From Myxococcota bacterium (GTDB lineage Bacteria; Myxococcota_A; UBA796; UBA9615; JAKLKC01), in contig JAKLKC010000018.1 of NCBI GenBank assembly GCA_023150875.1, forward strand, positions 1-64,000: a stretch of 64,000 bases of DNA. The letters run 5' to 3'. Every line of letters begins with the position of its first letter. Within the stretch, counting starts at the first letter, position 1. The notes below the pieces were generated by a model. That model was given only the letters and a program-made list of their open reading frames with translations, was not told the DNA's origin and ran no database searches. Of the stretch, positions 130 to 3,570 are shown in pieces. The position numbers were made by a program, and so were the translations under genes.

Positions 130-765
130 ATGTGGATGCTCGCGACGACGAACGAGGGTCGGCCGAGGCCGAGGCTGATGGCGCTGGACGCGGACCTGGC
201 TCGCCTGGCGGATGAGGAGCTGATGGGGCGCTACCGGGACGGGGAGGCCGCGGCCTTCGACGTGCTGGTGCGCCGCCACCGCGACGGCGTCCTGAACTTC
301 CTGTGCCGCATGGTGCGGGACCGCTCCGTCGCCGAAGAGATCCAGGCCGAGGTGTTCTTCCGGGTGCACCGCTCCGCGCCCCGCTACGAGCCGTCGGCGA
401 AGTTCACCACCTTCCTCTACACCATCGCCTACCGGCAGTGCTTGAGCGCGGTGCAGCGGAAGGAGCACCGGGTGCGGACCCGGTCCGCGGCGCCGGACGA
501 CTGGGGCCGGGCCCCGGCGGACGCCGACGGAGGCCGCCCCGCCGCCGACCCCGAGCGGCGGCTGATCCTGGAGGAGCGGATGGAGCGGCTGGCGGCGGAG
601 GTGGACGACCTGCCCGAGACCCACCGCGCCGCCTTCCTGCTCTACTACCTCGAAGGCTTGAGCTGTCAGGAGATCGCCGGCGTCCTGTCCCTCTCCGGGG
701 AGGAGGTCAAGGGGCGCCTGGCCTACGCGCGGCGGCTGCTGCGCGAACGGATGGGTGGAGAATGA
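130..765 (+). CDS. ECF-type RNA polymerase sigma factor
   Basis: A 211-residue sigma-70 family factor of the extracytoplasmic-function type, which redirects RNA polymerase to a small regulon. Region 2 is seen as GEAAAFDVLVRRHRDGVLNF and the following RDRSVAEEIQAEVFFRVHR; the linker is followed by region 4, LPETHRAAFLLYYLEGLSCQ then EIAGVLSLSGEEVKGRLAYA, a helix-turn-helix. ATG 130 gives an N-terminal extension; ATG 178 (MALDADLARLADEEL), with GAGG just upstream, is closer to where the family normally begins. The stop overlaps the next start as ATGA at 762-765, so translation is probably coupled to the anti-sigma-like gene. The family is certain; the exact start is not. Confidence 0.93.
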   Translation: MWMLATTNEGRPRPRLMALDADLARLADEELMGRYRDGEAAAFDVLVRRHRDGVLNFLCRMVRDRSVAEEIQAEVFFRVHRSAPRYEPSAKFTTFLYTIAYRQCLSAVQRKEHRVRTRSAAPDDWGRAPADADGGRPAADPERRLILEERMERLAAEVDDLPETHRAAFLLYYLEGLSCQEIAGVLSLSGEEVKGRLAYARRLLRERMGGE

Positions 766-1817
766 CCGCCACGAACAGGCCCGTGGACTGCGCCGGGACC
801 AAGGCCATCGCCCTCCTGCGCCCCGCGGACGTCGGCGTCGCCCAGAGGGCCGCCGCCGAGGAGCACCTGCGGGGGTGCGAGCTGTGCCGGCGCGAGGTGG
901 AGCGGGAGGGGGAGATCCTGGACCTCGTCACCGCCCTGCCCCGCCCGAGGTCCGCCCTCACCTCCGCCGAGGTCCTGGCGATGGACCCCAGCGCCCGCGC
1001 CCCCGGGGACGCCGCTCCCCCGGGACCCCGGGCGATCCCCCCGCCGGCCCCCGCCCGCCGCCGCCCCGCCCGGGTCCTGGCGCGGTGGTGGGCCCCCGTC
1101 TCGGGGCTGGCGCTGGCCGCCGCCGCCACGGCGCTGGCGCTCCTCCTGCCCCGTCCGCCCGCGGATCCCGACGCGTCGTCGCCGCCCCCGCCCGCCGCGG
1201 AGGACGGGGGTGCGGCGCCCGTTCCTGCCGGCGAGGGCCCCACTCCCGGCGCGGCTTCGGCGCCTCTCGCCGCCGGGCGCGCCCCCCGGGCCGCCGTGGC
1301 CCCGCGCCGCGCCGGTCCCGCCGGGGAGGCCGCCCACCGCTGGAAGGGGGACGCCCCCCGCCTCGCCGCCCGGGCCGACCTCGTGGCGTCGGTGGAGCGC
1401 CGGACCCTGGGCCTCACCGAGCTGCTGCCCGCCGCGGACGGGGTGCGCCTCCACGACGACGACGCCCTGGCCTTCCGCTTCCGGATCGAGGGCCAGGGGT
1501 GGCTGCTCCTGGTGGAGGTGGGACCCGACGGCGCCGTGCGCCCGGTCCACCCCGCAGACGGCGTCTCCCTGCCGGTGGCGACGGGGGCCTTCTCCATGGC
1601 CGACGCCTCGGGCGGTCCCCTGGTGTGGAGGGCGGACGGGGGGGCCGGGGCCTACCGCTACGTGGCCCTGGTGGGGGACCGCCCCTTCCGCGTCGCGGAG
1701 CTGCCCGCGGACCGGATCGGCGCCGCCGGGGACGGGACGGAGGTGGCTCCGGGGATCGCCGCCACCGACGCCCTCGCCACCGTGCGCGAGGAAGGGGGAG
1801 GGGGGCGGAGTGACTGA
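762..1817 (+). CDS. Anti-sigma-like zinc-finger membrane protein
   Basis: 351 residues. The N-terminus has the anti-sigma zinc-finger signature H35-x3-C39-x2-C42 (EEHLRGCELC), typical of proteins that bind and silence the sigma factor encoded directly upstream. One membrane segment follows (WWAPVSGLALAAAATALALL, about residues 108-130), then a Pro/Ala-rich linker. The outer domain has a FRFRIEGQGWLLLVEVGPDG stretch resembling DUF4384, a domain often found with caspase-like proteins (inference from memory of the motif). It overlaps the sigma gene by 4 nt and the next gene by 8 nt. The likely role is a transmembrane anti-sigma factor whose outer domain senses or contacts the lipoprotein encoded next. 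No direct evidence for the signal is visible. Confidence 0.8.
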   Translation: MTATNRPVDCAGTKAIALLRPADVGVAQRAAAEEHLRGCELCRREVEREGEILDLVTALPRPRSALTSAEVLAMDPSARAPGDAAPPGPRAIPPPAPARRRPARVLARWWAPVSGLALAAAATALALLLPRPPADPDASSPPPPAAEDGGAAPVPAGEGPTPGAASAPLAAGRAPRAAVAPRRAGPAGEAAHRWKGDAPRLAARADLVASVERRTLGLTELLPAADGVRLHDDDALAFRFRIEGQGWLLLVEVGPDGAVRPVHPADGVSLPVATGAFSMADASGGPLVWRADGGAGAYRYVALVGDRPFRVAELPADRIGAAGDGTEVAPGIAATDALATVREEGGGGRSD

Positions 1818-3570
1818 GGGGGCCCGCCCCGCGCGCCCCGCCCGCACCCGCCCGGGGGCGTGGGGAGCGCCGCGTCTCCTCCTGCTGATCGCCGCCCTCG
1901 CCGCCCTCGCCGGCTGCGCCGCCCCCCAGCGGGCGGGGATCCGCGACAAGGGGCTGGAGTCCGCCCGCAGCACCCGGGCCGAGGTCGAGGCCAGCCTCGG
2001 GCCCCGCCGCCTCGCCCTCCTGATCGGCGTCGACCGGTACGAGGACCCCGTCTTCCCACCCCTGCGCTTCGCCTCCCGGGACGCCGCCGACCTCGCGGCG
2101 GTCCTGCGCTCGGAGAAGTACGGGGGATTCGAGCGGGTGGTGACCCTCACCCGCCCCGAGGAGGTCACCCGCGCGAGGATCATCAAGGAAGTCGCCAACT
2201 TGCGCGCCGACGCCCGCCGCGAGGACAGCGTCGTCGTGTACTTCTCGGGCCACGGCACCATGGCCTTCGCCGCCGCCGAGCGTCCCCGCCTGTACCTGGT
2301 GGCGGGCGACAGCCAGGTCTCGGACCTGCCCGGCACCGCCCTGGACCTGGCGGACCTCCAGGAGATCGTCACCGAGCTCCGGGCGGAGCGGAAGGCCCTG
2401 GTGGTGGACGCCTGCTTCGACGGGCTGGGCAAGTCCAGCGTGCCCAAGGAGGTGCGGGAGCGCTCCCTCCGCCTGGGTTCCGCCTCGAACCTCTCCAGCC
2501 GGATCTCCCTGGGTCAGTCCGAGGCCCACCTCTTCGCCACCACCTGGGGCCGCCCCGCCCGGGAGGACGACGCCCTCCAGCACGGGGTCTACACCTACTT
2601 CCTGGTCCAGGCCCTCAACTGGGAGCAGAAGGCGGCGGACACCAACGGCGACGGGCTGGTCAGCGTCTACGAGGCCCACGACTTCGCCCGGGGGAAGACG
2701 GTGTCCTACACCCAGGCGGCCCAGGTGCCCGAGGCGTACTTCCGGGTCGTGGGCGAGCGGGACCTCTACCTCGTCGGCGACGTCACCCGGCGGGCGGCCA
2801 CCGAGATGGGCCTGATCTACTTCTACGGCGACGGCACCTCGGAGTACGCTGACGCGAGCCTGTCGGTGGACGGCCGGTTCAAGGGCGCCTTCCCGGGCAC
2901 CTACGCCATCCCCCCGGGGGAGCACCGGATCGCCATCCGGAGCGGCACGGGGAGGATGCTCTTCGACCGGGTGGTGGGGATCCAGGCGGGCTCCAGCGTG
3001 GTCGCCGACCGGCTCACGGGAGAGCCGCCCCCCCGCCGGGTGGCCGTCTCGGTGGCGGGGGGGGCCCGCTTCGCCCTGGACGAGGGGATGCTGGGCCTCA
3101 CCGGTCGGTCGGTGCCGGGCCTGGAGGGGCGCGTGACCTTCCGGCCCGGGAACGGCCGGTGGAGCGGCCTGACGCTGGCGGCGGTGGGGGGATGGGGACG
3201 GACGGGCTCCCTGGCCGCCGACGGCGATCCCGCCGGGGACCGCCGCCGGGACCTGGGCTCCGTGGGGATCGCCCTGGGCTGGCGCTGGGACCGGCCCCGC
3301 TTCGGCTTCGGGATCGCGTGGAGCGCCCGCGCCCACTTTGCATCGGCCCTGCCCGGCGGGGAGGCGTCGTGCGGCGGAGCCGCCGGGTGCGACGGGTTCG
3401 CGTGGCCCTCCCAGGGCCTCCTGCTGGACCAGTCCCTCCCCCTCGTCCCGGGGCGCCTCGGCCTGGTCCTCTCCGAGGACCTCCAGCTCGCCCTGGTGGA
3501 CGTCGGGGGGGGCGCGCGCTGGCTCAGCGCGTCGGCGGCGGTGAGGCTCGGCGTCGAGGTCGCCTTCTGA
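1810..3570 (+). CDS. Caspase-like (peptidase C14) lipoprotein
   Basis: 586 residues from GTG 1810, which overlaps the previous gene. A hydrophobic signal ending LAALAGC places a lipobox Cys at residue 36, so the protein is probably anchored to a membrane outside the cytoplasm. The caspase fold follows: LALLIGVDRYEDP, the catalytic His in VVVYFSGHG (H148) and the catalytic Cys in LVVDACFDG (C202). A DTNGDGLVSVYE loop later resembles an EF-hand. The C-terminal third is beta-rich with a terminal Phe (GVEVAF), as in outer-membrane or surface domains. Both dyad residues are intact, so proteolysis is plausible. The sigma/anti-sigma partners suggest a regulated envelope stress or self-targeting function, which is inference. 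Confidence 0.87.
   Translation: MTEGARPARPARTRPGAWGAPRLLLLIAALAALAGCAAPQRAGIRDKGLESARSTRAEVEASLGPRRLALLIGVDRYEDPVFPPLRFASRDAADLAAVLRSEKYGGFERVVTLTRPEEVTRARIIKEVANLRADARREDSVVVYFSGHGTMAFAAAERPRLYLVAGDSQVSDLPGTALDLADLQEIVTELRAERKALVVDACFDGLGKSSVPKEVRERSLRLGSASNLSSRISLGQSEAHLFATTWGRPAREDDALQHGVYTYFLVQALNWEQKAADTNGDGLVSVYEAHDFARGKTVSYTQAAQVPEAYFRVVGERDLYLVGDVTRRAATEMGLIYFYGDGTSEYADASLSVDGRFKGAFPGTYAIPPGEHRIAIRSGTGRMLFDRVVGIQAGSSVVADRLTGEPPPRRVAVSVAGGARFALDEGMLGLTGRSVPGLEGRVTFRPGNGRWSGLTLAAVGGWGRTGSLAADGDPAGDRRRDLGSVGIALGWRWDRPRFGFGIAWSARAHFASALPGGEASCGGAAGCDGFAWPSQGLLLDQSLPLVPGRLGLVLSEDLQLALVDVGGGARWLSASAAVRLGVEVAF

Follow-up and report, generated by a model that had tools for sequence, protein, structure and literature searches.

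What would an exported caspase do in the same overlapping operon as a sigma factor? The question is raised by positions 130 to 3,570 of the window, by which we mean the whole 64,000-nucleotide stretch of DNA that was analysed (Myxococcota bacterium, GenBank assembly GCA_023150875.1, contig JAKLKC010000018.1, positions 1 to 64,000). Three plus-strand genes are located there at 130-765, 762-1817, and 1810-3570, and they encode an extracytoplasmic function (ECF) sigma factor, a single-pass membrane protein that is a putative anti-sigma factor, and an exported caspase protein. The original prediction had described three genes overlapping by 4 and 8 nucleotides, the first of them for a sigma factor, and both the coordinates and the overlaps (the shorter being ATGA) were confirmed. 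The answer that we favour, and regard as rather likely, is that the envelope caspase would be the site-1 protease that cuts the anti-sigma factor of its own operon. Nearly every inhibitor carries the type of site usually cut by such proteases, which makes it probable that the caspase is what switches the sigma factor on.

The first base of the window is also the first base of its contig (C90), part of a draft genome of 6.92 Mb, and just 129 bases are therefore known 5' of the sigma gene (130..765, plus strand; an alternative start at 178 is possible in our own gene calling). Its 211-amino-acid product was matched by Pfam Sigma70_r2 (4.5e-13) and r4_2 (1.3e-08) and by TIGR02937, all over cut-off, and thus has the sigma-2 and sigma-4 regions within one short protein, as expected of the ECF group. 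Separately, a CGGTT-like stretch 5' of the sigma gene was noticed by eye as common to the nearest relatives (L026, L027, L028, and L029) and may be a binding site.

The three-gene unit, called a triad here, was defined as a sigma gene, a middle gene, and a caspase gene, with gene starts, transmembrane helices, and middle genes taken from our own scripts. Caspase relatives were present in 6/7 genomes of the order, the window's own included, and a middle gene with at least a partial sigma gene lay upstream at all 15 places examined in the order (the window and a second locus on contig C157 included). In the phylum, 114/235 genomes had a caspase match at 1e-15; at most five candidates were scored per genome, and the sample is the best among the matches listed per genome. 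It comprised 78 loci, 12 of which had less than 1.5 kb upstream (three of these were still triads). The other 66, from distinct genomes, had 1.5 kb or more upstream, and 51 of them were triads (50 by script and L185 by eye), against a chance expectation of about 0.35 calculated for a genome of 6.92 Mb with 29 sigma genes. Further hits gave triads in 34 of 40 cases. Conserved linkage in other genomes, on whose absence the original prediction was to fall, was thus found. The 54 triad genomes of the phylum sample (the three short-upstream ones and L185 included), together with those of the order, represent about 20 families, and most of the named relatives are metagenome assemblies of Deltaproteobacteria or Myxococcales. 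The sole caspase relative found outside this group, going by names, was L112 (Candidatus Hydrogenedentes), with no match to a sigma or middle gene upstream. Left out were L141 (caspase truncated by the contig end) and, in the structure alignments, L112 (no triad) and the middle gene of L106, whose start is unclear.

The same genome contains a second triad (L007:324-3426, contig C157), consisting of an ECF sigma gene and genes for a DUF4384-like membrane protein with the motif LKG and an exported caspase. In a relative (G005, L026:1301-7462), two different triads stand in tandem, the order sigma, anti-sigma, caspase occurring twice. Four phylum caspases that have no upstream sigma gene (L161, L169, L182, and L189) gave weak DUF4384-profile scores within their own frames (E 0.006-0.025).

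The middle protein (762..1817, plus strand, 351 amino acids) probably holds the ECF sigma factor. Its gene adjoins the sigma gene and is coupled to it through the ATGA overlap, which recurs in 44/68 triads of the first set, and basic residues precede its one transmembrane helix, as for a cytoplasmic N-terminus. Coupling of this kind to an ECF sigma gene, combined with a single-pass plan with the N-terminus inside, is the usual layout of ECF anti-sigma factors. The AlphaFold2 model (15 sequences, mean predicted local distance difference test score (pLDDT) 72.6) has N-terminal helices, the transmembrane helix, a disordered linker, and a confident outer beta domain at residues 204-342. The single membrane helix that had been proposed was recovered at residues 111-129 (1092..1148, plus strand), the only hydrophobic helix of the protein (Kyte-Doolittle 1.99 over 19 residues; helix 114-128 in AlphaFold2). 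The proposed zinc finger stood in part: the pattern HxxxCxxC is present in the cytoplasmic part (H35, C39, and C42; 864..887, plus strand), and neither Pfam nor NCBIfam matched the protein at E ≤ 1, zf-HC2 and anti-sigma families included, so the call is made at the level of the motif. As a family-wide feature the zinc finger was discarded, since the pattern was found in 14/68 triads and is not general to the family.

The outer domain (1371..1787, plus strand) had been called DUF4384-like, and here the outcome depended on the method. PF14326 (DUF4384, cut-off 27 bits) was not reported for the window's middle protein at E ≤ 1. It matched 2/15 close relatives and reached 25.5 bits, under the cut-off, in the paralogous middle protein on contig C157. 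With a profile of 28 DUF4384 domains from outside triads, 23/69 middle genes matched at 1e-3 or better, the window's scoring 0.017. In hhalign comparisons against the same 28 domains, middle-protein profiles gave 95.7% (5 nearest), 96.8% (14), and 98.1% (all 69 rows, one of which, L185, was wrongly picked), and controls gave 0-3.4%. Profile comparison thus supports a domain akin to DUF4384 in sequence, and the other condition on which the original prediction was to fall, an outer domain unlike DUF4384, did not hold either. A search of solved structures by sequence with the middle protein returned nothing useful. Structural likeness of the outer domain was to many immunoglobulin-like beta domains (Z up to 8.8) and was set aside as too general to use; no anti-sigma structure was among the matches listed. 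Elsewhere in the genome (L008:851-2784, contig C178, minus strand), an ECF sigma gene is followed by a gene for a DUF4384-like protein with one transmembrane helix, with no caspase gene downstream; this protein has no Lys/Arg-Gly near the helix, and the next gene is on the opposite strand.

The juxtamembrane linker of the window's middle protein contains the predicted cleavage site, K195-G196 (1344..1349, plus strand; P1 Lys, P1' Gly). In the aligned middle proteins, one column, beyond the membrane helix and immediately ahead of the outer domain, holds Lys or Arg in 67/68 triads, and the residue after it is Gly in 60, Ser in 5, and Ala in 2 of these 67. The next best Lys/Arg column of the alignment reaches 59%, and in general the identity among middle proteins of the order is only about 26% per column. 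L185 was omitted from the motif counts (the script had mistaken another gene for the middle one; inspected by eye, the locus is a triad with the sequence RTKG). A motif frequency of 90% was written down as a prediction before the 40 further hits were fetched, and in the 34 held-out triads from these, Lys/Arg followed by Gly/Ala was found at the exact column in 30. The strict column total is 97/102 middle proteins with Lys/Arg and then Gly, Ser, or Ala; among the remaining five, L237 is shifted by one residue, and by eye L216 and L241 have PKG, L222 has VRG, and L134 has VKA, all of them inside the linker. Lys/Arg-Gly within 45 residues after the membrane helix was present in 90/102 triads versus 7/26 other genes for proteins with one such helix. 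In the window's genome, six genes for single-pass proteins were judged to lie directly downstream of a sigma gene with no caspase gene (L194, L199, L202, L209, L211, and L008), and the pair was near the helix in one (L199). When linkers were shuffled, Lys/Arg-Gly was observed 63 times versus 31.1 expected; the looser pattern of Lys/Arg followed by Gly, Ala, or Ser is weak on its own because it was observed 68 times versus 52 expected.

The caspase protein (1810..3570, plus strand, 586 amino acids) has its caspase domain at residues 66-309 (2005..2736). Pfam Peptidase_C14 (PF00656) matched with 57.3 bits against a cut-off of 21.4 (2.5e-15) and scored far better than CHAT (PF12770, 24.4 bits, cut-off 24) on the same protein; the EACC1-associated caspase model NF047832 gave 101.4 bits, below the NCBIfam cut-off of 140. 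In the AlphaFold2 model (16 sequences, mean pLDDT 82.4), the caspase fold is followed by a small PEGA-like beta domain (residues 333-392, 2806..2985; PEGA below cut-off, E 0.018) and by eight long strands of 11-17 residues, predicted to form a beta barrel (residues 411-585, 3040..3564). MALT1 was the top Foldseek match, and OmpA chains were also listed; VIA-align gave Z 24.1 for Arabidopsis metacaspase 4 (root-mean-square deviation 2.4, 224 residues) and 23.8 for MALT1 (3.2, 219 residues). The intact dyad of H148 (2251..2253) and C202 (2413..2415) named in the original prediction was exact in its numbering: both residues are invariant in 15/15 close relatives, and the His/Cys dyad is kept in 102/102 triads (68/68 in the first set and 34/34 held-out). 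The same source had the protein as a lipoprotein, and an LAGC lipobox with C36 (1915..1917) does follow a hydrophobic stretch; the description was incomplete, as the predicted C-terminal barrel comes in addition. With lipobox and predicted barrel together, the protein probably has two anchors in the outer membrane. Among triad caspases, a hydrophobic N-terminal stretch was found in 59/68 and a lipobox-like pattern in 11/68. A defence-system reading was rejected; PADLOC gave its generic caspase model only. Two more PF00656 matches are encoded in the genome (L009, contig C55; L010, contig C96), with no sigma gene nearby.

Two acidic residues are predicted to line the S1 pocket, as in peptidases of family C14B. 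D91 (2080..2082) aligns with the metacaspase NDA motif and is Asp in 96/96 aligned caspases of the first set and in 34/34 held-out triads. D200 (2407..2409) is Asp in 90/96 of these caspases, in 62/68 triads, and in 33/34 held-out ones. It is located two residues before the catalytic cysteine, and its equivalence to a known pocket acid was drawn from that position; Asp211 of TbMCA2 and Asp462 of MALT1 presumably lie likewise two residues before theirs. The pocket acids named for these proteins are Asp95 and Asp211 in TbMCA2 and Asp365, Asp462, and Glu500 in MALT1, and metacaspases and paracaspases cleave after Lys or Arg (PMC4357240, in part). By analogy with these C14B relatives, we infer that the triad caspase would cleave after Lys or Arg as well.

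In the proposed mechanism, the middle protein would retain the ECF sigma factor on the cytoplasmic side of the inner membrane, with the DUF4384-like domain directed toward the periplasm. The caspase would be exported, carry a lipid in this case, and probably sit in the outer membrane through its eight-strand barrel. Some envelope signal would activate it, and it would then cleave the anti-sigma factor between the membrane helix and the outer domain, at K195-G196, on the C-terminal side of the conserved basic residue. Once site 1 is cut, a site-2 (M50) protease and proteases of the cytoplasm would be able to complete the release of the sigma factor; M50 proteases are encoded in the genome. Release of the sigma factor by an envelope protease, which the original prediction held possible, is in this way supported at the level of sequence, by the predicted site and the conserved predicted acidic pocket.

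Could the middle protein instead serve the caspase as its sensor? The DUF4384-like domain would then dock on the caspase and hold it, Lys/Arg-Gly would be bound as a pseudo-substrate, and the sigma factor would tune production of a caspase having other envelope targets. The same gene linkage and motif fit this, and DUF4384 is accessory to 23 cyanobacterial orthocaspases (PMC8283722), so it may be a general partner domain. Against this, an active dyad kept throughout the triads fits cutting at least as well. The residue before the predicted cut falls within a stretch of the AlphaFold2 model with pLDDT below 50 (192-197), and a disordered stretch on the membrane side of the domain is a usual place for site-1 cuts. 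A sensor role is, in our judgement, rather unlikely.

A second possibility is that Lys/Arg-Gly has a structural role as a border of the outer domain, or serves a different protease, and that the linkage reflects co-regulation only. The distance from the motif to the start of the DUF4384 profile is fairly steady (21-36 residues in 33 proteins), and the motif might for this reason be structural. The distance from the membrane helix to the motif is, on the other hand, variable (7 to 65 residues). In the same span of the non-triad DUF4384 domains, Lys/Arg-Gly was found in 3/28 and was thus absent from 25, and the DUF4384-like anti-sigma factor on contig C178, which has no adjoining caspase gene, lacks it in the first 40 residues after the membrane helix. 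We consider this possibility improbable. That the middle protein is a membrane receptor or substrate with another output, and the sigma gene merely co-transcribed, would agree with the missing anti-sigma family match of the window's protein, the rarity of HxxxCxxC, and a cytoplasmic part of sometimes only about 40 residues, but is very doubtful given how often the ATGA coupling recurs and how typical of ECF anti-sigma factors the single-pass plan is.

Several points besides that steady distance weigh against cleavage of the anti-sigma factor by the caspase. A caspase in the outer membrane has to reach a target in the inner membrane. The support for cleavage and for sigma binding comes from sequence and predicted structure. 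D200 is replaced by Ala in seven triads (L134, L135, L136, L137, L139, L140, and L214); in the middle proteins of these, Lys stands at the motif column or at most two residues away, and a link between loss of D200 and the P1 residue was set aside because Lys is the commoner residue anyway and the genomes are related. The predicted 90% for the motif was reached only by allowing a shift of one residue (31/34), and the background of Lys/Arg-Gly in other single-pass proteins is not zero. Among the 66 caspase hits, 15 were without a triad, mostly weaker matches to different caspases. An ECF-type promoter was not enriched 5' of the sigma genes (2/68 versus a shuffled mean of 1.15).

If the caspase does cut its neighbour, the triad is most likely a new form of the regulated proteolysis of anti-sigma factors, itself a known mechanism. 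On a wider claim we are evenly divided: the phylum-wide family of envelope caspases may consist of dedicated anti-sigma site-1 proteases. Many bacterial caspases would then act in transcriptional signalling, on a substrate and cut site that are genetically encoded and conserved along with them, and not primarily as agents of cell death, and in some of them caspase, receptor barrel, and lipid anchor may form one protein that senses the outer membrane. To our knowledge, few natural substrates have been established for bacterial caspase homologues, and test peptides are spoken of instead; here, more than 100 operons would name substrate, bond, and output for a bacterial caspase. At stake is whether caspase-controlled transcription occurs outside CRISPR systems. 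No paper reporting the triad was found in the open-access literature searched, and an ECF group with peptidase C14 neighbours may already be on record.

Among known systems, metacaspases and MALT1 (C14B) resemble the triad caspase in fold, dyad, and predicted pocket acids, a basic P1 being a feature of the known members; unlike them, the window's caspase is exported, lipidated, equipped with a predicted C-terminal barrel, and encoded in an operon with a sigma factor. In regulated intramembrane proteolysis of the RseA/DegS/RseP type (PMC10028731), the site-1 protease is a PDZ serine protease, whereas in the triad it would be a caspase from the same operon with a basic P1. The two are alike in the single-pass anti-sigma factor, the site-1 cut outside the membrane (proposed for the triad), and a site-2 protease in the genome. 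ECF54 has CHAT and other protease genes nearby, and proteolytic control has been proposed for it; the sigma gene is thus likewise near caspase-like genes, and ECF54 is described as lacking an anti-sigma factor, unlike the triad with its putative one (PMC8999054). Cyanobacterial orthocaspases also combine Peptidase C14 with DUF4384, there as an accessory domain in one protein, and the part of that source available has 0 occurrences of sigma factor (PMC8283722). The nearest working precedent is Csx29/Csx30, in which the caspase-fold protease Csx29 cuts the inhibitor Csx30 of an ECF-like sigma factor, CASP-sigma, and thereby frees transcription (PMC10028731, in part). In that source, the CASP protease (Cas7-11-Csx29) is a TPR-CHAT protein switched by RNA via the CRISPR effector, whereas the window's protease is a lipoprotein that is exported and has a predicted barrel; its putative inhibitor protein also differs from that of CASP, in being membrane-bound and in its DUF4384-like outer domain.

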